Part shown: one piece after another, positions 24,844-50,689 of the stretch
Numbering within the stretch: position 1 is the first letter of the stretch
Layout of the letters: every line of letters starts with the position of its first letter
Origin: Sporolactobacillus sp. THM19-2
Lineage (GTDB): Bacteria > Bacillota > Bacilli > Bacillales > Sporolactobacillaceae
DNA length: 64,000 bases
Assembly: GCF_004153195.1 (NCBI RefSeq)
Contig: NZ_SEMC01000005.1
Coordinates: 124,001-188,000, forward strand
Direction: 5' to 3'
The notes under the pieces: model-generated
The model's database searches: none
What the model saw: the letters and a program-made list of their open reading frames with translations, nothing else
What the model was told of the DNA's origin: nothing
Translations under genes and position numbers: made by a program

Positions 24844-25620
24844 ATGACTTTACTGGAGAAAACAAGAAAAATTAATCACCTGTTGCAAGGGACTAAAACA
24901 CAGGTGGACTTCAACGAAATGGCAAAGACCCTGCGGGATGTCATTCAGACCAATACATTTGTTGTCAGCAGGCGCGGGAAGATTCTTGGATTATCATTGA
25001 AACTTGAATTTGAGAATGAACGGATCAGGAAGATGTTTGAAAGCAGGCAATTTCCCGAGACCTACACGAGAAATCTGTTCAGTGTGATGCAGACTTCCCC
25101 TAATCTGGATATAAACAGTGAGTTCAGTATATTTCCGGATGAAAATAAAGATTTGTTTGTTAATGGTTTAACGACCGTTGTTCCAATTGTCGGAGGAGGG
25201 GAACGGTTAGGTACACTGATCCTGTCCCGACTGAATGAAACGTTTACAGATGAAGATCTGATTCTTGCGGAATATGGCGCGACCGTAGTCGGTATGGAGA
25301 TTCTTCGTGAGAAAACCGACGAGGTTGAGGAAGAAGCGCGCGAGAAAGCGATCGTTCAAATGGCAATCGGTTCTCTTTCATACAGTGAACTGGAAGCGAT
25401 AGAACATATTTTTGAAGAACTCGATGGCAAAGAGGGTCTGCTTGTTGCAAGCAAAATAGCGGATCGCGTAGGTATTACACGTTCTGTGATTGTTAACGCG
25501 CTCAGGAAACTGGAAAGTGCAGGTGTTATTGAATCCAGATCACTGGGAATGAAAGGGACATACATCAAAGTGCTTAATGACAAGTTTTTGGTTGAACTCA
25601 ATCGTATTAAAGGCGAATAA
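24844..25620 (+). CDS. codY: Global transcriptional regulator CodY
   Basis: GTP- and branched-chain-amino-acid-sensing repressor of nutrient-limitation genes. 258 residues from ATG 24844 (ATG 24841 also in frame). The N-terminal GAF domain (residues 1-155) includes [11 protein letters not shown] and [17 protein letters not shown] linker helix [12 protein letters not shown] leads to the C-terminal winged helix-turn-helix [25 protein letters not shown] (24831-24835) precedes the start by 8 bases. In Bacillus CodY also affects the fla/che operon that follows here. Confidence 0.98.
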
Positions 25621-25638
25621 GTCCAGATATACTTCAGG

Positions 25639-25676
25639 CTCCGGGTGATCGTTCTTTCACCCGGAGTTTTATTATT
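25639..25676 (+). terminator. Rho-independent terminator after codY
   Basis: CTCCGGGTGA (25639-25648) and TCACCCGGAG (25657-25666) form a perfect 10-bp stem with an 8-base loop, followed by TTTTATTATTTT. Confidence 0.92.
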
Positions 25677-25703
25677 TTGTTGAAAAAAATTCAAAATAAA
25701 ATA

Positions 25704-25734
25704 GATCATATGAAATGATCCATTTTAAATGGAT
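25704..25734 (+). promoter_or_regulatory. Overlapping inverted repeats upstream of fla/che
   Basis: GATCAT (25704-25709)/ATGATC (25715-25720), directly overlapped by the 17-base perfect palindrome ATCCATTT-T-AAATGGAT (25718-25734). No T run follows and the location is past the codY terminator, so an operator is more likely than a terminator. The binding protein is unknown. Confidence 0.5.
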
Positions 25735-25771
25735 TTTCTCCTGAATTTTCATTTAGCCTATTCAGCCAGAG

Positions 25772-25786
25772 CCAGAGTAACTCTGG
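25772..25786 (+). promoter_or_regulatory. Perfect palindrome CCAGAGT-A-ACTCTGG upstream of fla/che
   Basis: A 15-base perfect inverted repeat with a single central base, about 125 bases before the flgB promoter. Operator-like; its regulator is unknown. Confidence 0.45.
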
Positions 25787-25908
25787 AAATAATCAATAGA
25801 GCGTTTACATAAGGATTGATTTTCTCACTTATTCACAAAATATGTGACTAAAGCCCCGCGCCCATGGTACCAAAATAGTTAAATCCTGTCGAGAAAAGCA
25901 GAAATTTG

Positions 25909-25936
25909 TAGACATTAAGTCGAAAATTGATAAAAT
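25909..25936 (+). promoter_or_regulatory. Sigma-A promoter of the fla/che operon
   Basis: TAGACA (25909-25914), 16 bases, extended -10 TGATAAAAT (25928-25936). The start is predicted about 26 bases before flgB. No SigD-type element was found in this gap. Confidence 0.65.
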
Positions 25937-25968
25937 GAAGATATTGGTATATGGAAAGGTCGTGAGAA

Positions 25969-26352
25969 ATGATGTTCAATGATTACCCGATAAATACGAT
26001 TCAGCTGGCCATGAACAGATCTTTTGCGCAGCAGAATCTCATTGCACAGAACATTGCCAATGTTGATACACCCGGCTACAAAGCAAAAAAAGTGGCGTTT
26101 GATTCGCTGTTAGGCGACCAACTTCAGGCATATCGAACCCGTCCGGGGCACATATCTTTTTCCGGTTCAGATCCGAAGGGATATCATACAGAAATGGATA
26201 CATATGGTACGATACAGGATAACGGCAATAATGTAGATATCGATCATGAGATGTCAGAACTTGCCAGAAACCAGCTGCTTTATCAGACACTTTCACAGTC
26301 AGCGGCTGATCAATTTAAAAAATTCAATATTGTACTGGGAGGCAATGCGTAA
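25969..26352 (+). CDS. flgB: Flagellar basal-body rod protein FlgB
   Basis: First gene of the fla/che operon; proximal rod component exported by the flagellar type III system. 127 residues. It has the rod/hook N-terminal motif NLIAQNIANVDTPGYKAKKV and a C-terminal amphipathic helix (SELARNQLLYQTLSQSAADQ) as in axial proteins. ATG 25969 follows AAAGGT by 8 bases; a second ATG at 25972 is equally possible. The stop shares a base with the flgC start. Confidence 0.95.
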   Translation: MMFNDYPINTIQLAMNRSFAQQNLIAQNIANVDTPGYKAKKVAFDSLLGDQLQAYRTRPGHISFSGSDPKGYHTEMDTYGTIQDNGNNVDIDHEMSELARNQLLYQTLSQSAADQFKKFNIVLGGNA

Positions 26353-31842: not shown

Positions 31843-32301
31843 ATGGCGTTTGATTTCAGACTGGCACGTGTTCTGGAACTTGCAGATAACAAGAAAAAGA
31901 ATCTTGAGGCTGAGTACCAGACATTGTTCAGGCGATTGGAAGACATGGCAAAAAAACTGATTGATCTGCTTAATCAAAGGGAAAAAAAGCAGCATGTTTT
32001 TCAAAACCAGATGCAAAAAGGGACGACTATTGACTCGATTAAAGGCCGGTTATCTGATACGGCAATTCTGGATCAGCTGATCGCAGAAGAAACACGTCAA
32101 TATGATCGACTGAAGCAGCAGATGGAAGCCTATCAGGCTGACCTGCTGGAAAAATCCATTGAAGTAAAAAAGTACGAAAAACTAAGAGATAAAAAGTGGC
32201 AACACTATCTGGAGAAAAAGAAAAAGATTCAGTTGAAAAGCATGGATGAAATTGCGGCTTCACGTGCGTCGGACAGGATAAATGGTGTAAAAAGGTGGTG
32301 A
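31843..32301 (+). CDS. fliJ: Flagellar export protein FliJ
   Basis: 152 residues, nearly all coiled coil with many Lys, Glu and Gln (FRRLEDMAKKLIDLLNQREK). It is the central stalk of the FliI hexamer, equivalent to ATP synthase gamma, and also escorts chaperones. Identification rests on size, coiled-coil character and position directly after fliI, because sequence conservation in this family is low. It starts 2 bases after the fliI stop, with AAAGGAG at 31826-31832. Confidence 0.9.
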   Translation: MAFDFRLARVLELADNKKKNLEAEYQTLFRRLEDMAKKLIDLLNQREKKQHVFQNQMQKGTTIDSIKGRLSDTAILDQLIAEETRQYDRLKQQMEAYQADLLEKSIEVKKYEKLRDKKWQHYLEKKKKIQLKSMDEIAASRASDRINGVKRW

Positions 32302-32313
32302 GCAGCGTCGATT

Positions 32314-32901
32314 ATGAAAATCCTGAAAATCGGTCTTGCTGTTCTGGTTCCAGTCATTTTATTAGTGGTTATCGGCGGCTTTCTGCTCAGTCTTTCGGGA
32401 GTAGATCCTGTTACGGCAACCAAAAATCTGTTAACGGGTTCCCATAACTCTGAGCAGAGTAATACGGGTCCGGACAGCTCTCAGATGGAAAAAATGAAAA
32501 AAACAATATCAGACCAGAATGACACCATCAGACGTCTGCAAAACGATTCACAGAAGAAAAATGATCAGATCGCTCAGCTGAATAATGAACTGAATCAGGC
32601 TCAGCATAATGCGGATCAGGAGGGGAGCAGCCAGGGAGAAGCTGCCAGGCGGGCTGTTTATGCACAGACCTACAAAAATATGGACCCGGCCAAAGCATCG
32701 GCCATTTTTGAAAAGCTGAAAACAAATCAGGCTGCAGAATACTTAAATATGCTTGATAATAAGACAAAAGCAGCCATTCTGGAAAATATGGCGCCGGACA
32801 AGGCGGCGTCACTGACGCCGCTGCTTAAACCGCTTCAGGAACCGGAGCCTTCCTCCGACTCCGGCACAGAAACGACAAACAGCACAGTGCCGAACCCTTA
32901 A
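32314..32901 (+). CDS. ylxF: YlxF/MotE-like membrane protein of the fla operon
   Basis: 195 residues. One N-terminal membrane helix (about 6-28, IGLAVLVPVILLVVIGGFLL), a periplasm-side coiled coil (55-105, Asn/Gln/Asp-rich), and a C-terminal MgtE-N/FliG-like helical repeat domain (TYKNMDPAKASAIFEKL, ILENMAPDKAASLTPLL). In other bacteria the related MotE acts with the stator as a chaperone for MotC; in Bacillus its role is not established. Placed between fliJ and fliK as in B. subtilis. Confidence 0.85.
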   Translation: MKILKIGLAVLVPVILLVVIGGFLLSLSGVDPVTATKNLLTGSHNSEQSNTGPDSSQMEKMKKTISDQNDTIRRLQNDSQKKNDQIAQLNNELNQAQHNADQEGSSQGEAARRAVYAQTYKNMDPAKASAIFEKLKTNQAAEYLNMLDNKTKAAILENMAPDKAASLTPLLKPLQEPEPSSDSGTETTNSTVPNP

Positions 32902-32934: not shown

Positions 32935-34848
32935 ATGGACAGCAGCCAGTTTCGTATTGAAAACGGAGGCTCTTTTCATAAAGTGGTGAAGAAAAAGAAG
33001 ACGAAACCTGTATCGCAGCACCCTGTAAATTTTATGAATGTGGTTCAGATGGTCATGGTGGGTCATCCATCCGAAAGGCCGAAAAAATCAGGATATGCAG
33101 GCAGGAAAAACACTTCAGAAGCGTTTTCTCATATGGACATCCACTCTTTTCAGGAAAAGAGACCGGGCTCGAAATTCGTGCATACGGACCACACTGAGCA
33201 GATTGCTAAGAAGAAGATGAGCCCGCTTGTCGTTGATCAGAGCAATCCATCCGTCAACAGAGTCAGCAGTGAAGGTATTCCGGGAAAAAGCCTGCCGGAA
33301 AAAGTTTCATCCCTGTCTGATAAAAAGGTAAAAAATGGCGCTCAGGATCAGTTCTTTCCGGTTAATCAGAAAAGCGGCTGCAGGGCAGATCCAGACAGGC
33401 AGCCTGTTCAAACCGTAGCCAAAGAAATCAGCCAGATGCCGGTGGGATCAGGCCGGCACGCTGACAAGGTGCACCCTTTTAATACTTCCAATTTATCAGA
33501 AAAAGAATCCGGAAGTCATTTTTCACATGATGCTTCTACCCCCCGCACGCAAGCAAAAACTCCGGGGCATTTATTGGGGACGGAATCCGCTGATGCGGAT
33601 CAGCCCACCGGTCATTCCGAGACCTTTGAGCAAAGCAATCCATCCGTCAACAGATTAATGAATGAGGGTATTCTGGAAAAAAGCTTGTCGGAAAAAGTTT
33701 TATCCCTGCATGATAAAAAGATAAAAAATGACGCTCAGGATCGGTTCTTTCCGGTTAATCGGAAAAGCGGCTGCAGGACAGATTCAGACAGGCAGCCTGT
33801 TCAAACCGTAGCCAAAGAAATCAGCCAGATGCCGGTGGGATCAGGCCGGCACGCTGACAAGGCGCACCCTTTTAATACTTCCAATTTATCAGAAAAAGAA
33901 TCCGGAAGTCATTTTTCACATGATGCTTCTGCCCTCCGCACGCAAACGAAAACTCCGAGGCATTTACCGGGGCAGATATCTGCTGATCCGGGTCAGCCCA
34001 CCGGTCATTTTGATACCCGTTTTTCCTTATTATCTGCTCTCACTCAGGTGGGGCAAGAGGGTAAAAAGAGGGATTCCGTAAGCCCTGAGCTCCTGCCGGC
34101 CGCTCAGAAAAGAGTAGATGGGACCTTGATGAACTCAGGAATCGTCACAGCCTCACCCCGAAAAGGTGAAGGGACGCAGCAGGATATCCGGCTCCTGCTT
34201 CACCGCAACCAGGCAGCAGCACCGGTACACTTGAGCAAAGCCGCTCCGCCCCGGGAAGCCGCTAAGGGATCTGTTCCGGAGGCTTCCGCGTTTGACCAGC
34301 CTGTTGCCCTGCGACAGGTGAATCGTATGACGCTGTGGGCCACTTTCAATGAAAATCGGCCCGAGGCGGTAACGGTTTCTGATTTTATTGGACGACAGAT
34401 TTCTGAACAGCTGGCCAAATGGCTGAAACAGTCATCCTTTCAAATGACTGACAGGAATAATAACCGTTTAACGGTTACTCTTTACCCTGAACAGCTGGGG
34501 CAACTGACGATTTCAGTCATTCAAAGTGAGGAGGGGATCATTGCCAGATTGTCAACCCAGACTAAATTTGCTAAGGATATGATTGAATCCGGATTGACCC
34601 GGCTGGCCGACCAATTATCCCGACAGGGCATACCCGTCAGTCAAATAGATGTTTCACGGCAATGGCAGACGGCGGACAGTAATGATTCAAAACCATGGCC
34701 GGATCAGCATGGATATCAGTCCTTTCAGGGGAATGAACATGATTCAGGTGAAGAAGATCACCGGCAAGAGAATCAGCAATCTGCCCATATACCGGAAAAC
34801 GCAGAAGACAAACCAGCCTTCATAGACTGGATGACAGGAGGGATATAG
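32935..34848 (+). CDS. fliK: Flagellar hook-length control protein FliK, with internal duplication
   Basis: Exported ruler that measures the hook and switches FlhB from rod/hook to filament export. 637 residues, long for a Bacillus FliK. The N-terminal part is Ser/Lys/His-rich and probably disordered. Residues 101-231 are repeated as 232-362 with about four-fifths identity. The C-terminal Flg_hook domain (about 505-590) has LTVTLYPEQLGQLTISVIQ and the following ARLSTQTKFAKDMIESGL. ATG 32935 follows a perfect AAAGGAGGTGA (32920-32930); the frame is open from 32905 but without a ribosome site. Confidence 0.95.
   Translation: MDSSQFRIENGGSFHKVVKKKKTKPVSQHPVNFMNVVQMVMVGHPSERPKKSGYAGRKNTSEAFSHMDIHSFQEKRPGSKFVHTDHTEQIAKKKMSPLVVDQSNPSVNRVSSEGIPGKSLPEKVSSLSDKKVKNGAQDQFFPVNQKSGCRADPDRQPVQTVAKEISQMPVGSGRHADKVHPFNTSNLSEKESGSHFSHDASTPRTQAKTPGHLLGTESADADQPTGHSETFEQSNPSVNRLMNEGILEKSLSEKVLSLHDKKIKNDAQDRFFPVNRKSGCRTDSDRQPVQTVAKEISQMPVGSGRHADKAHPFNTSNLSEKESGSHFSHDASALRTQTKTPRHLPGQISADPGQPTGHFDTRFSLLSALTQVGQEGKKRDSVSPELLPAAQKRVDGTLMNSGIVTASPRKGEGTQQDIRLLLHRNQAAAPVHLSKAAPPREAAKGSVPEASAFDQPVALRQVNRMTLWATFNENRPEAVTVSDFIGRQISEQLAKWLKQSSFQMTDRNNNRLTVTLYPEQLGQLTISVIQSEEGIIARLSTQTKFAKDMIESGLTRLADQLSRQGIPVSQIDVSRQWQTADSNDSKPWPDQHGYQSFQGNEHDSGEEDHRQENQQSAHIPENAEDKPAFIDWMTGGI
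33235..34020 (+). repeat. 393-bp in-frame tandem duplication within fliK
   Basis: Unit 1 is 33235-33627 and unit 2 is 33628-34020; landmarks recur at exactly 393 bases (AGCAATCCATCCGTCAACAG at 33241 and 33634; CAGCCCACCGGTCATT at 33601 and 33994). The middle, coding QPVQTVAKEISQMPVGSG and the residues after it, is almost unchanged, while the edges have diverged. Confidence 0.95.
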
Positions 34849-35304
34849 TTGGTTTCACCTATAAATTCAATGAATACCGTTGCATCAGATCAGGTTGCCG
34901 GGAGAAAAAATGACACACTCAGTAAGGACGATTTTTTAAAATTGTTTGTTGCACAACTAACTCATCAGGATCCCACTTCACCTTTAGACAGTGGTCAGTT
35001 TATTTCTCAGATGGCAGAGTTCACGTCACTGGAACAAACGCAAAATATGGGTCAGGCGATTGATAAATTTGTTGATTCGCAATCGAGTCAGTCATTATCG
35101 GATCAGGCGGTAATGATCGGGAAAAGAGTGGCCTGGGAAGAAGATGATGATTCAGGTCAGACACATCTGGAAAATGGAATCATTTCCTCGGTGACTTTAA
35201 AGGATGGGGCCGTTTATTATGTTACGCAGACAGGCGAGTCTGTTCATCCCTCTTCAGTGACTGAAATCAGTGAACCTGAGGATGCAGGTGTCTCTGAGTC
35301 ATGA
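34849..35304 (+). CDS. flgD: Flagellar hook-cap (scaffolding) protein FlgD
   Basis: Caps the growing hook and guides FlgE polymerisation. 151 residues. The family N-terminal motif is plain: TLSKDDFLKLFVAQLTHQDP, then SPLDSGQFISQMAEFTSLEQ. It is short because it lacks most of the tandem Fn3/Tudor part of enteric FlgD; the C-terminus has one small beta domain (IGKRVAWEEDDD). The start is TTG 34849, immediately after the fliK stop and 7 bases after GGAGG; ATG 34870 is a weaker alternative. Confidence 0.95.
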   Translation: MVSPINSMNTVASDQVAGRKNDTLSKDDFLKLFVAQLTHQDPTSPLDSGQFISQMAEFTSLEQTQNMGQAIDKFVDSQSSQSLSDQAVMIGKRVAWEEDDDSGQTHLENGIISSVTLKDGAVYYVTQTGESVHPSSVTEISEPEDAGVSES

Positions 35305-43553: not shown

Positions 43554-45590
43554 ATGGGAAAAAGAAGTGATTACATCGTTATGCTGGGTGTGATTCTGAT
43601 TGTTATGATGCTGATCATACCCCTTCCGCCGACCTTACTCAGTTTTTTAATTATATTAAACATCTCGCTTGCGCTCATCATTCTACTCATCACGCTTAAT
43701 GTCAACGAACCTCTTGAGTTTTCTGTTTTCCCATCTCTGCTTCTGATCATGACCCTGTTCCGGATCGGGCTGAATGTTTCGACAACGCGGCTCATACTGA
43801 CTGAAGGAGACGCCGGGCAGGTGATCGAGGCATTCGGGCAGTTCGTCGTATCAGGGAACGTGATTGTGGGTCTGGTTGTCTTTCTGATCCTGATCATTGT
43901 CCAGTTTATCGTGATTACAAAAGGTGCTGAACGTGTTGCAGAAGTGGCAGCCAGATTTACACTGGATGCGATGCCGGGAAAACAAATGAGCATTGATGCC
44001 GATATGAATGCCGGATTAATTGACGACAGAGAAGCAAAGAAAAGGCGTGAGAAGATTACCAGGGAAGCAGATTTTTATGGTGCCATGGATGGCGCCAGTA
44101 AATTTGTAAAAGGAGACGCCATTGCAAGTATCATCATTGTGGCAATCAACCTGCTGGTCGGCATGATTATTGGTGTTCTGCAACAGGGCATGTCCCTGCC
44201 TGATGCTGCACAGACATTCAGTCTGTTATCTGTCGGTGATGGTATCGTCAGCCAGATCCCGGCACTTCTGATCTCTACAGCGACCGGCATTGTTGTGACC
44301 CGGTCCTCTTCAGAGAAAAATATGGGAAGAGAAGTGTCAGACCAGCTGCTGGCATTCCCGGCCATGCTCATTGTTGCCGGTCTCGTGATCTTGACACTGG
44401 GGATGACGCCAATCGGCCTGATTTCGACGCTTCCTATCGCGCTGGTGCTCGTTATTGGAGGCTATCTGTTACGACGCAGCCGCAGCAGACCGGAGAAAGA
44501 TGCGGGTCAGGCCAAGGAAGAAAAGAACGAGGAAAAATTCAGGCAGCGTGAAAATGTAATGGATTTGCTTCAGGTGGATCCGGTTGAATTTGAATTTGGT
44601 TACGCTCTTGTCCCCATTGCCGACAGCAGCCAGGGCGGGGATTTGCTGGACCGGATTGTCATGATTCGGCGTCAGCTGGCTCTGGAATTAGGGATTATTC
44701 TACCTGTCGTCCGAGTCCGTGATAATATTCAGCTTAAACCAGACAGTTATCAGATCAAAATAAACGGAAGCGTAGTCGCAAAAGGGGAGCTGATGCTGGA
44801 TCATTATCTGGCGATGAGTCCCGGAGTTGAGGATGAATCAGTTAAGGGCATCGAGACCACTGAGCCGGCATTTGGGCTGAAAGCACTGTGGATCGATGAA
44901 AAAATGAAAGAACACGCCGAGATGGCCGGCTATACCGTTGTCGATCCGCCATCTGTCATATCCACTCACCTGACGGAAGTCTTCAAAAGACATGCCGGAG
45001 AACTGCTCGGCCGTGAAGAAACCAAACAATTGATCGATCATTTGAAAGAACATGCACCAGCCCTGGTAGAAGCCGTCACACCTGATCCGCTCAGTCTTGG
45101 TGATGTCCAGAAAGTACTGGTCAATCTGCTGAATGAGAAACTGTCCATCAGAAATCTGCCGGTTATTTTCGAAACCCTTGCAGATGATGCCCCCATGACA
45201 AAGGACACCGGTCTTCTGACGGAGTACGTCCGCCAGGCATTATCAAGACAGATAACCGATCAATTCGTCCATCAGGGTGAGCCATTGAAAGTACTGACTC
45301 TTTCCCCTGATCTGGAGAAAAAAATAATGGATTCCGTGCAGAAGACCGAGCATGGAAATTTTCTTGCCATGGACTCAGTTACCACAACCCAGGTGCTGAA
45401 AAATCTGTCTGAGTCTGTTCATATGTGGTCGGATATGGACAGTGATCCGATCATCCTTTGTTCTCCCATGGTCAGGATGTATGTCCATCAGCTTACTGAA
45501 CGTTATTTTCCAAATATACATATTCTGTCCTATAATGAATTGGAGACCAACGTGGAAGTCCAGAGTATTGGAGTGTTAAGTGCGGCATGA
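43554..45590 (+). CDS. flhA: Flagellar export protein FlhA
   Basis: 678 residues. Eight membrane helices in the first ~330 residues, including the FHIPEP signature region with FRIGLNVSTTRLIL and the loop VAARFTLDAMPGKQMSIDAD. The large cytoplasmic domain (about 350-678) forms the nonameric docking ring for chaperones and late substrates. It couples proton flux to export. Overlaps flhF by 4 bases. Confidence 0.98.
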   Translation: MGKRSDYIVMLGVILIVMMLIIPLPPTLLSFLIILNISLALIILLITLNVNEPLEFSVFPSLLLIMTLFRIGLNVSTTRLILTEGDAGQVIEAFGQFVVSGNVIVGLVVFLILIIVQFIVITKGAERVAEVAARFTLDAMPGKQMSIDADMNAGLIDDREAKKRREKITREADFYGAMDGASKFVKGDAIASIIIVAINLLVGMIIGVLQQGMSLPDAAQTFSLLSVGDGIVSQIPALLISTATGIVVTRSSSEKNMGREVSDQLLAFPAMLIVAGLVILTLGMTPIGLISTLPIALVLVIGGYLLRRSRSRPEKDAGQAKEEKNEEKFRQRENVMDLLQVDPVEFEFGYALVPIADSSQGGDLLDRIVMIRRQLALELGIILPVVRVRDNIQLKPDSYQIKINGSVVAKGELMLDHYLAMSPGVEDESVKGIETTEPAFGLKALWIDEKMKEHAEMAGYTVVDPPSVISTHLTEVFKRHAGELLGREETKQLIDHLKEHAPALVEAVTPDPLSLGDVQKVLVNLLNEKLSIRNLPVIFETLADDAPMTKDTGLLTEYVRQALSRQITDQFVHQGEPLKVLTLSPDLEKKIMDSVQKTEHGNFLAMDSVTTTQVLKNLSESVHMWSDMDSDPIILCSPMVRMYVHQLTERYFPNIHILSYNELETNVEVQSIGVLSAA

Positions 45591-46657
45591 AAATAAAAAA
45601 AATCATCGCACCGACCATGCAGCAGGCCATAGAAAAAGTTAAACAGGAACTGGGCAGCGACGCGGTTATCTTTCATACAAAAAAAGTTTCAACAGGCCAT
45701 TTTTTTAACCTGTTTAAGAAAGAAAATATTGAAGTGCTGGCAGCAAGTGATCCTGATACGGAATCCGCATTTAAAACTGTTCCGAAATATTCCGATAATA
45801 GAAGAAGGGAAGTGTCGCCACCTCCTGCATTTCATCAGGATGTCAGGGAAGATCCTCTGTTTTCAGGACCTGATTATATTAAGAAAATGAGAAGGCTGAT
45901 CATCGGTCAGGGAATGATTGCCGAGCATGCGGATCAGATACTGAAAATACTTGTAAAAAAGTGGTATCAGAGCAACGAACAGCTTGGACAGGATCAGCTT
46001 AACCGACTGTTTCAGCTGGAATTGGTCAGGTTGCTGAACCCTGAACGTTTTAAACGACCTCAGGTGGCAGATCAGATGATGATGCTGGTCGGCCCGACCG
46101 GTGTCGGAAAAACGACAACCCTTGCCAAACTGGCCGGACAGGCAGCACTTGAAGGCGTGGAGAAAATGGTTTTAATCACGGCCGACACGTTCCGCATTGC
46201 CGCGATTAATCAGTTGAGAACCTATGGAGAAATCATTGATATACCCGTAGAAGTGGCCTACTCTGCAGAAGATTTCCAGACATTAATTGAAAAATATTCG
46301 GATTATGACCGTGTATTCATAGATACTGCCGGTCGTAATTATCAAAATGAAACATACATCCGGGATATTGGTCATCTGATCGATACCCATTCCCGGATCA
46401 GACCGTATCTTGTCCTCTCGGCAACGGCAAAGTACGAAGATATGGATGCACTGATGACTAAATTTAATCCCTTACATGCCGACCGGATGATTATCACAAA
46501 AATTGATGAAACAAAGACTTATGGCGGCATGATCAGCGCCTTGTTAAATCATCCCCGTAAGCATCTGACCTATGTCACAAATGGACAGGAAGTACCTGAG
46601 GACCTGCAGGCCCCGGATATACATACTTTGATCAATCGAATGCTGGGTGATTGTTAA
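45587..46657 (+). CDS. flhF: SRP-type GTPase FlhF
   Basis: 356 residues. Sets flagellar position and number. N-terminal basic B domain (FHTKKVSTGHFFNLFKKENI), a helical N domain, then G1 [16 protein letters not shown] (from about 169), G3 DTAGRNYQNE and G4 TKIDETKTYGG. Third SRP GTPase in the window with FtsY and Ffh. Overlaps flhA by 4 bases and flhG by one. Confidence 0.97.
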   Translation: MKIKKIIAPTMQQAIEKVKQELGSDAVIFHTKKVSTGHFFNLFKKENIEVLAASDPDTESAFKTVPKYSDNRRREVSPPPAFHQDVREDPLFSGPDYIKKMRRLIIGQGMIAEHADQILKILVKKWYQSNEQLGQDQLNRLFQLELVRLLNPERFKRPQVADQMMMLVGPTGVGKTTTLAKLAGQAALEGVEKMVLITADTFRIAAINQLRTYGEIIDIPVEVAYSAEDFQTLIEKYSDYDRVFIDTAGRNYQNETYIRDIGHLIDTHSRIRPYLVLSATAKYEDMDALMTKFNPLHADRMIITKIDETKTYGGMISALLNHPRKHLTYVTNGQEVPEDLQAPDIHTLINRMLGDC

Positions 46658-47547
46658 TGGGAACAGATCAGGCTGAAAAACTGAGACTGCTCATAAGAAA
46701 ATATCGCGAAGATCAGTATCATCATGCGGATGTTATCGCTGTCCTCAGTGGGAAAGGCGGGGTAGGGAAATCGGTTTTCAGTACGAATTTTTCTATCGCC
46801 CTTGGCAGGACGGGGAAAAGAGTCTTGCTTATTGACCTGGACGTCGGGATGGGTAACATTGAACACCTGCTTGGTCACTCCACTTTATCCAGCGTAGCCG
46901 ACTGCATCCGTGACCATCTGGCCCTGCATGACGCCATCTTTCACGGACCCGGCAACCTTTCTTTCATCCCCGGAGGCAACAGTCTTGCCGAATTGTTCCA
47001 AATTGATGAGAGAAACCTGAACATTTTTCTGAAGCAGGTTGATGATCTGAAAAAAAATTATGATTATATTATTCTTGATTTCGGAGCAGGAGTAAATCAA
47101 AATATGCTTCACTTTTTACTTGCTGCAAAACGGATGATCCTGATCACGACTCCGGAACCTCCTGCTCTGGCGGATGCCTACTCCACGTTAAAAATTATAG
47201 GCTTTCATTACCCGGAAATGGACGCGTCGATCGTAATCAACATGGTTGACGATCTGTCGGAGGGAAAAGAAGCATGGAACAGAATTTCTGAAACCGCTGA
47301 CCGTTTTTTACACATGACCATACACTGGCTGACTTCGCTGCATCGGGACCGGGCGGTAATCAGATCGATAAAGGAACAGGTGCCATGCGTTGTTCAATAT
47401 CCCCGCGCCCGGTACAGTATTGAAATGAAACTGCTTGCCGGTGCTTTTCTCACTCAGAAAGAGGGATTTCCGAAAGTCCGGCAGGATACCACTTTCGGAG
47501 AACGTGTCAGAATTCACTTCAGAAGACTGCGAGGTGGAAAGGGATGA
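46657..47547 (+). CDS. flhG: FlhG (YlxH), MinD-like ATPase
   Basis: 296 residues. ParA/MinD family ATPase that stimulates FlhF GTPase and helps C-ring assembly. Deviant Walker A SGKGGVGKSVFSTNFS (about 31-46), LLIDLDVGMGNIEHLLG, and DFGAGVNQN. The N-terminal FlhF-activating peptide (DQAEKLRLLIRKYRED) is present. ATG 46657 shares a base with the flhF stop, with GGGTGA before it; TTG 46651 is less likely. Confidence 0.95.
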   Translation: MGTDQAEKLRLLIRKYREDQYHHADVIAVLSGKGGVGKSVFSTNFSIALGRTGKRVLLIDLDVGMGNIEHLLGHSTLSSVADCIRDHLALHDAIFHGPGNLSFIPGGNSLAELFQIDERNLNIFLKQVDDLKKNYDYIILDFGAGVNQNMLHFLLAAKRMILITTPEPPALADAYSTLKIIGFHYPEMDASIVINMVDDLSEGKEAWNRISETADRFLHMTIHWLTSLHRDRAVIRSIKEQVPCVVQYPRARYSIEMKLLAGAFLTQKEGFPKVRQDTTFGERVRIHFRRLRGGKG

Positions 47548-48611
47548 AACTCGTCCGTGTGATGGTCGTAGATGACTCAGCATTTATGAGACAAACGCTG
47601 AAAATGATGATTGAAGAAGACCCTGTTTTGCAGGTGGTGACAACAGCAAGAGACGGGCGGGATGCTTTGATCAAACTGAAAAAGTATCATCCGGATGTGG
47701 TCACACTGGATATTATCATGAATGGAGAGATGGACGGACTAGAGACGCTTCACCATATCATGAAGCAAGATCCCACTCCTGTGATTATGGTAAGCGGCGC
47801 CTCGGATGAACATGTGAATTATGTCATTGAAGCGATCAGCAGCGGCGCCTTTGATTTTATTAATAAGCCTTCAGGGAAGGCCGACATGGAATCTATTGGA
47901 GCTAAGCTGCAGTTGAAGATCCACCAGGCTGCTTTATCCAGGATCAGTCCTTCTTCTTCCGATCAGCACACCACAAAGTCAGACGATACAAATTTATTTT
48001 TTCCTTCGCCCGGGGGGAATAACCCTCCTTCACTCATTGTGATCTGTACATCGACGGGCGGGCCCAAAGCTCTTCAGACAGTCATACCGGCTTTAAAAAA
48101 AGAACTTTCCGTTCCGATAATTATCATTCAGCATATGCCTCCCCGGTTTACAAAAACGCTGGCCGAACGGCTGAACAGCCTGTCTGATGTGCAGGTGACC
48201 GAAGCTGCTGACGGAGAAATCCTTCAGAATGGCCGGGTTTACATCGCTCCGGGCGGTCATCATTTGATCATTAAAAAAAATCCGGATGCTCTTTGCTTTC
48301 ATTTGCTGGATACGCCGGCCGTTCATGGCGTCAAACCGGCGGCTGATGTAACCCTTGAGTCCCTGACTCATATCCCGGATCTGTCCGTTCTGGTTGCCGT
48401 TCTGACGGGTATGGGTAAAGACGGCGCGAGCGGGATTAGGCAATTGAAAGAGTCAGTTCAACAGGTTTACGTCGTCGCTGAATCTGAAGAGACTTCTGTT
48501 GTTTTTGGAATGCCGAAAGCGGCAATCGGAACCCATCTGGTAGATGAAGTTTGCGGAATTGATCAAGTGGCGGCATCGATATGCCGCCAGTTTGCACTGA
48601 AGGAGGGTTAA
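47544..48611 (+). CDS. cheB: Chemotaxis glutamate methylesterase CheB
   Basis: 355 residues. N-terminal receiver (1-125) and C-terminal methylesterase (about 165-350), which removes methyl groups from chemoreceptors. Catalytic Ser in CTSTGGPKAL, His in IIQHMPPRFT, Asp in GMGKDGASG are all present. In the receiver the phosphoacceptor Asp56 is followed by IIMNGEMDG where the family has x-x-M-P-x-M-D-G: one residue is inserted and the Pro lost. Overlaps flhG by 4 bases. Otherwise intact. Confidence 0.95.
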   Translation: MKLVRVMVVDDSAFMRQTLKMMIEEDPVLQVVTTARDGRDALIKLKKYHPDVVTLDIIMNGEMDGLETLHHIMKQDPTPVIMVSGASDEHVNYVIEAISSGAFDFINKPSGKADMESIGAKLQLKIHQAALSRISPSSSDQHTTKSDDTNLFFPSPGGNNPPSLIVICTSTGGPKALQTVIPALKKELSVPIIIIQHMPPRFTKTLAERLNSLSDVQVTEAADGEILQNGRVYIAPGGHHLIIKKNPDALCFHLLDTPAVHGVKPAADVTLESLTHIPDLSVLVAVLTGMGKDGASGIRQLKESVQQVYVVAESEETSVVFGMPKAAIGTHLVDEVCGIDQVAASICRQFALKEG

Positions 48612-48616
48612 GGGTT

Positions 48617-50689
48617 ATGGATATGAATCAATATTTAGGCATTTTTGTTGATGAAGCCAGGGAACATCTTCAGAACCTGAATGATAAATTGATGGAACTG
48701 GAAGATCAGCCCCGGGATCCGGAACTGATCAGCAGTATTTTCAGGTCAGCTCATACACTGAAGGGCAGTTCGGGACAAATGGGTTTTGGAAATATGATGA
48801 AGCTGACACATACAATGGAAAATGTGTTTGATGCATTGCGTCATCAGAAAATTACTGTCTCTTCAGATATGATTGACAGACTCTTTGAAGCCCTGGACAC
48901 GCTGGAATCCATGGTTGATTCTGTCGAGCAGGGGGAAAGCGATGAGCAGGATATAAACGGCGTTCTTGCTAAACTGCAGGATCTGGTTCAGGCAGATCCG
49001 GCTCCGGTTTCAGCAGGCAATGGACGTCAGGATCATATGGATCAATCTGCCGGCCACTCCCTGCCGAAAATAAATTTTTCAGATTATGACAAGACTGTGA
49101 TTACCCAGGCAAAGGATCAGAATATGCAGACATTCGTCATTGAGATCACGCTGCGAAACGACTGTGTACTCAAAGCTGCCAGAGCGCTGATGGTATCCAA
49201 TGCACTTGAAGAGGCAGGGCATATCATTAAATCTGAGCCATCAACAGAGGACATAGAAAAAGAAGCATTTGACAGACAGTTTACATATGTTTATGTCAGC
49301 AATATGAGTGCTGAGTCCATTCATAAAAAGGTTATGAACATCTCAGAAATTGAACGTGCGGATATTGTTCCTGTTTCAGACCGTTCATTAGAGTCAGAGT
49401 CCGGGGAGGAAAAAGCAGATCAATCTGCAAAACCTGCTCAGGCGAAAAAAAGGGCATCAAACAACCGCGTGCAGGGTTATCGACAGGTAAAACCGGTTGC
49501 AAAAACAATTCGCGTAAATTTAGAGCGCCTGGATCATTTACTGAATTTATTTGAAGAAATGGTTATTGATCGAAGCCGGCTGGAAAGAATAGCGGCATCA
49601 ATGAACGATCCGGAACTTCAGGAATCTGTGCGTACGATTAAAACGGTCTCGGATCAAATGCAGGAAACGATTCTGAATCTCAGAATGGAACCGGTCGAAC
49701 AGGTATTTAATCGTTTCCCGCGGATGGTGCGCAGCCTGGCAAAGGAGCTGAATAAAAAAGTTCATCTCGTCATCAGCGGATCTGAAACGGAACTGGACAG
49801 AACGATGATCGATGAACTTGGGGATCCTCTGATGCATATGATCAGAAATTCCATGGATCATGGTATTGAACATCCGGACGAGCGCGCCGGAAAGGGCAAG
49901 AATCCTGAAGGGACACTGTCACTCCGGGCTTATCACAGCGGGAATCACGTTTTCATAGAAATAGAGGACGATGGCGCAGGAATCAACAGAGAGCAGGTTC
50001 TTAAAAAAGCTCTTCAGAAGAAACTGATTTCTGAAGAAGTCCAGGCATCAATGACTGATAAAGATGTTTATCATCTCCTGTTTGAATCAGGTTTCAGCAC
50101 TTCCGAAAAAATCTCCGACATTTCGGGAAGAGGTGTCGGACTTGATGTTGTCGAAAGCAAGATTCAGTCAATGAGCGGTTCCGTTCAGGTCGAATCCACT
50201 GAAGGGGCGGGTACTAAATTTACAGTCAGACTGCCGCTTACCCTTTCGATAATCAGTGCCATGCTTGTCCAATGCGGAAGTGAAGTTTATGCTATCCCCA
50301 TGACTTCAATTAAAGAGACGGCGCTGAGCCGTCTGGTGAAGCTGCAGACAATCAGGAATACGCAGGTGATGTCCTATCAAAATCATGTCATGCCGGTGAT
50401 CGATCTTTCCAGTTATCTCGACATACCGGATCCCCCTGAAATGCGGCAGAACAGCTCTGGATCAATCATTGTTGTTCATCACGGAAAGAAAATGGCGGGA
50501 CTTGCTGTTGAAAAAATACTGGGTTATCAGGATATCGTGATTAAACCGCTTGGAAAATACCTGGAAAATGTTAAAGGATTCTCTGGTGCAACCATTCTTG
50601 GAGATGGGAAAGTGTCGCTCATTCTTGATTGCCAGGTCATCATTGAGGGACAGCAGAAACAAACAAAATGTCTGAGGAGGGTTGACTGA
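48617..50689 (+). CDS. cheA: Chemotaxis histidine kinase CheA
   Basis: 690 residues. P1 phosphotransfer domain with His46 in FRSAHTLKGSSGQ; P2 (about 160-265) binding CheY/CheB; P3 dimerisation (IRVNLERLDHLLNLFEEMVI); P4 ATPase with N box DPLMHMIRNSMDHGIE, G1 EIEDDGAGI, G2 SGRGVGLDVV; P5 CheW-like C-terminus. ATG 48617 comes 9 bases after AAGGAGGG; the frame is open from 48581 inside cheB. Confidence 0.97.
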   Translation: MDMNQYLGIFVDEAREHLQNLNDKLMELEDQPRDPELISSIFRSAHTLKGSSGQMGFGNMMKLTHTMENVFDALRHQKITVSSDMIDRLFEALDTLESMVDSVEQGESDEQDINGVLAKLQDLVQADPAPVSAGNGRQDHMDQSAGHSLPKINFSDYDKTVITQAKDQNMQTFVIEITLRNDCVLKAARALMVSNALEEAGHIIKSEPSTEDIEKEAFDRQFTYVYVSNMSAESIHKKVMNISEIERADIVPVSDRSLESESGEEKADQSAKPAQAKKRASNNRVQGYRQVKPVAKTIRVNLERLDHLLNLFEEMVIDRSRLERIAASMNDPELQESVRTIKTVSDQMQETILNLRMEPVEQVFNRFPRMVRSLAKELNKKVHLVISGSETELDRTMIDELGDPLMHMIRNSMDHGIEHPDERAGKGKNPEGTLSLRAYHSGNHVFIEIEDDGAGINREQVLKKALQKKLISEEVQASMTDKDVYHLLFESGFSTSEKISDISGRGVGLDVVESKIQSMSGSVQVESTEGAGTKFTVRLPLTLSIISAMLVQCGSEVYAIPMTSIKETALSRLVKLQTIRNTQVMSYQNHVMPVIDLSSYLDIPDPPEMRQNSSGSIIVVHHGKKMAGLAVEKILGYQDIVIKPLGKYLENVKGFSGATILGDGKVSLILDCQVIIEGQQKQTKCLRRVD

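Follow-up and report, generated by a model that had tools for sequence, protein, structure and literature searches.

The flagellar operon in the 64-kb stretch of DNA analysed here (the window) contains a fliK gene with two long, similar segments arranged head to tail. This raises the questions of how the repeat arose, what has kept the centres of the two segments alike, and whether a longer FliK would give a longer flagellar hook.

fliK and its genomic context

The following features were assigned at the fliK locus:

31843-32301: fliJ, near neighbour before fliK
32314-32901: MgtE_N-like gene, adjoining fliK
32935..34848, + strand: fliK, flagellar hook-length control protein of 637 aa (PF02120 match and operon position)
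34435..34671, + strand: C-terminal export-switch domain of FliK (Flg_hook), approximate limits (PF02120 match; alpha/beta elements in the predicted model)
34849-35304: flgD, directly after fliK

The start codon of fliK is the ATG at 32935, preceded by AAAGGAGGTGAG. Flg_hook (PF02120) matched residues 500-578 of the protein, numbered from codon 2, with an E-value of 3.4e-16 and 59.3 bits (cut-off 29.8 bits). Genes at this locus are ordered as fliI, fliJ, the MgtE_N-like gene, fliK, flgD and a hook/rod gene. Features expected of FliK were present, namely the C-terminal Flg_hook domain, the place in a flagellar operon, and a long, poorly conserved, disordered N-terminal part. The product of 32935-34848 is thus FliK by domain and operon place, as the first-pass annotation had named it, and its secretion and role in hook-length control are predicted.

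A tandem duplication in the N-terminal part of FliK

Two repeat units were delimited in fliK by Tandem Repeats Finder and by alignment of the units:

33235..33627, + strand: repeat unit 1, FliK residues 101-231
33628..34020, + strand: repeat unit 2, FliK residues 232-362; likeness to unit 1 fades past 34009

Tandem Repeats Finder reported an array at 33233-34009 with a period of 393, 2.0 copies, 90% matches, no indels and a score of 1307, the sole long-period array in the window. Both units are 393 bp long and align in frame without gaps. Pairwise comparison, which had been proposed as a check, gave 41 nucleotide differences and identical residues at exactly 103 of 131 positions, the number estimated by eye when the head-to-tail, in-frame duplication was first described. 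The off-diagonal self-score of FliK was 541, against a maximum of 44 after shuffling. The final bases of unit 2, about eleven, are barely alike to unit 1, so the homologous stretch covers approximately 33233-34009. A search of both flanks found no third, decayed copy, and no copy of the unit was found elsewhere in the genome.

The repeats look disordered by charge and hydropathy. In the predicted model pLDDT is about 42 or lower and almost the whole of each unit lacks secondary structure, low confidence in an AlphaFold model built from one sequence being weak evidence of disorder. Both results agree with the earlier description of this N-terminal region as probably disordered.

The duplication in a second strain

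One further genome of the species was available, G010; it is assembled as a single contig and encodes a 637-aa FliK with both units. Comparison of the four unit sequences revealed 38 inter-unit differences common to both strains, which places the duplication before the divergence of the two sampled strains. The first-pass annotation had suggested that it might set this strain apart from relatives with a single unit, a view that the second genome does not support. It also bears on whether a misassembly made the second unit, since the window comes from a draft genome of 70 contigs; such an artefact is so improbable as to be negligible and is already refuted, as the units differ from each other at 41 sites and the independent one-contig genome has both of them with the same differences.

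Of the 786 sites in the repeat region, 8 differ between the strains, a rate roughly fivefold that of the clonal background (p 2e-4). No site among the four unit sequences from the two strains supported gene conversion after the strain split, and no change in copy number was seen since then, the count being two in each of the two genomes and only two strains being sampled. The suggestion that the units can gain or lose copies, giving length variants, was accordingly not borne out in these strains. Counting units in related strains gave two in the conspecific genome and no recognisable unit in the rest of the genus.

Two other places in the window stand out in the comparison of the strains, whose background divergence is about 0.2%. 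Around 36 positions differ at 25600-26000, in the intergenic stretch between codY (ending at 25620) and flgB (starting at 25969), upstream of the flagellar operon. Positions 44200-48800, from flhA to a cheB-like gene, diverge by about 3% compared with the 0.2% background, a pattern suggestive of import through homologous recombination.

Divergence between the two units

The differences between the units are unevenly distributed, and a near-identical central block was delimited in each:

33392..33537, + strand: central block of unit 1, 146 bp with a single difference
33785..33930, + strand: central block of unit 2 (alignment to unit 1)

Over 48 consecutive codons of the block no more than one is changed, and none of 20,000 codon shuffles produced such a run. 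Earlier descriptions of more than 40 nearly unchanged central codons, and of changed edges around a kept centre, were therefore accurate. The dN/dS ratio between the units is 1.0-1.4, reaching 1.37 at the edges, where the amino-acid sequence is hardly constrained or unconstrained.

Gene conversion and selection had both been put forward to explain the kept centre. Selection would hold the central 48 codons alike if they bind FlgD (hook cap), FlgE (hook protein) or the export gate and if two such sites are useful. The N-terminal part of Salmonella FliK does bind FlgD and FlgE, with partial loss lengthening the hooks (PMC6972891), and in the units analysed here the centre shows a strong depletion of nonsynonymous changes, with 1 at about 112 sites compared with 33 of 193 at the edges (Fisher p 2e-6). 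Nonetheless, synonymous changes are depleted as well, with 0 at about 32 central sites where about 4 would be expected from the edges (7 of 56; Fisher p 0.045), a test only just significant, for a centre picked after the data were seen. Outside this species, the block is also unrecognisable in FliK of the genus or family, and selection on the protein is in our view an unlikely cause. Because the synonymous sites are unchanged too, an old gene conversion or a cycle of unequal exchange appears to fit the centre better than protein-level selection, a preference that we hold with moderate confidence. Of the two earlier proposals conversion is hence favoured, as an event preceding the strain split.

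FliK in related genomes

The 637-aa FliK is the longest in its genus, where the proteins of the 12 other species with FliK measure 436-563 aa (median 475). Those proteins align to it solely over the C-terminal residues 436-636. Removal of one unit would leave 506 aa, inside the range of the genus. Searches with the 262-aa repeat in 26 genomes of the family gave nothing credible outside the species, and shuffled-score tests of the repeat against the N-terminal parts of other FliK proteins were negative. The N-terminal part of FliK evolves too fast for the number of units in relatives to be told. An ancestral state with one unit is suggested by protein length only, no outgroup having a recognisable single unit.

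Within the same genus, FliK of G002 contains a weaker repeat of 39 aa. G004 yielded no match to the FliK of the window, and Flg_hook matched no more than weakly (E 2.9e-5); the gene may have been lost from this genome or may have diverged strongly.

Internal duplications in FliK of other members of the order

Strong internal repeats were found in 6 of the 63 FliK proteins compared across the order, including the one in the window. In G024, 100 aa occur twice before the C-terminal domain, while the congener G023 has a single copy. Internal repeats also precede this domain in G016 (38-aa spacing) and G032 (139-aa spacing). The ruler part of the 913-aa FliK of G154 (L044) consists of several diverged copies of a unit of about 149 aa, a more extreme case than that of the window. 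In the 662-aa protein of G188 (L045) the repeat seems to involve the C-terminal domain itself, with more than one diverged copy. Because the sequences and sizes of the units differ, the duplications across the order are, on comparison of these proteins, separate events.

All FliK proteins with strong repeats have at least 530 aa (6 of the 16 proteins in this size class, none of the 47 below it; p 1e-4), an association rather than a frequency, as long proteins were fetched deliberately. It is doubtful, though conceivable, that the ruler length of FliK evolves in large steps throughout the order by recurrent intragenic tandem duplication and conversion between copies, hook length then corresponding to countable units that are gained or lost.

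Predicted effect on hook length

The explanation that we regard as probable is that a single tandem duplication, 393 bp long and in frame, extended the secreted and disordered ruler or linker of FliK before the strains separated. During export FliK would pass through the hook as it grows, and the additional 131 residues would delay the C-terminal domain in reaching FlhB and switching export, resulting in a longer hook.

In Salmonella, an engineered series of FliK proteins of 310-785 aa gave longer hooks with longer ruler parts, hook length being linear with FliK length over 363-785 aa at 0.2 nm per inserted residue (PMC6126814). At this rate the extra unit predicts about 26 nm more hook, with an upper limit of about 48 nm for a fully extended chain (0.37 nm per residue). 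The Salmonella inserts were helical YscP segments whose effect on the hook was measured, whereas the effect in the FliK of the window is predicted by analogy. Since the repeats look disordered, with no helix predicted in the unit, a calibration derived from alpha-helical inserts may not transfer exactly.

The duplication could also be neutral, with hook length the same or buffered and the extra unit a tolerated filler. In its favour, the edges of the units diverge without constraint, and FliK sizes range broadly across the order (open frames of 360-946 aa) for no evident reason. However, neutrality is at odds with the linear response of hook length in Salmonella and with the impaired swimming and fall in motility caused by long hooks there (PMC6126814), and we consider it somewhat unlikely. 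A longer hook in this species is a fair inference from the Salmonella analogy.

Known parallels and significance

Similar to the FliK described here, YscP of Yersinia enterocolitica is a secreted type III ruler lengthened by internal repeats. Its natural length differs among strains by the number of repeats of 14, 25 and 46 aa, and needle length follows YscP size (PMC3469391). YscP belongs to an injectisome and has several short repeats in strain-variable number, whereas FliK has one 131-aa unit doubled in both strains. A second parallel is a suppressor of a linker deletion in Salmonella FliK, in which function was regained via an in-frame intragenic duplication of about 100 residues, evidence that such events can occur and yield a functional protein (PMC6972891). 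That duplication arose in the laboratory and lies in the C-terminal domain, while the one in the window occurs naturally and affects the N-terminal ruler. The literature searched contained no description of FliK with an internal duplication of natural origin.

That internal duplication changes the length of ruler proteins is already known, and the FliK of the window is an ordinary but clean case. Understanding of hook-length control is unchanged by it. One defined unit has been cleanly doubled in a Gram-positive lineage, which makes this FliK a natural counterpart of the engineered length series and a further indication that the length of type III rulers changes through internal duplication.
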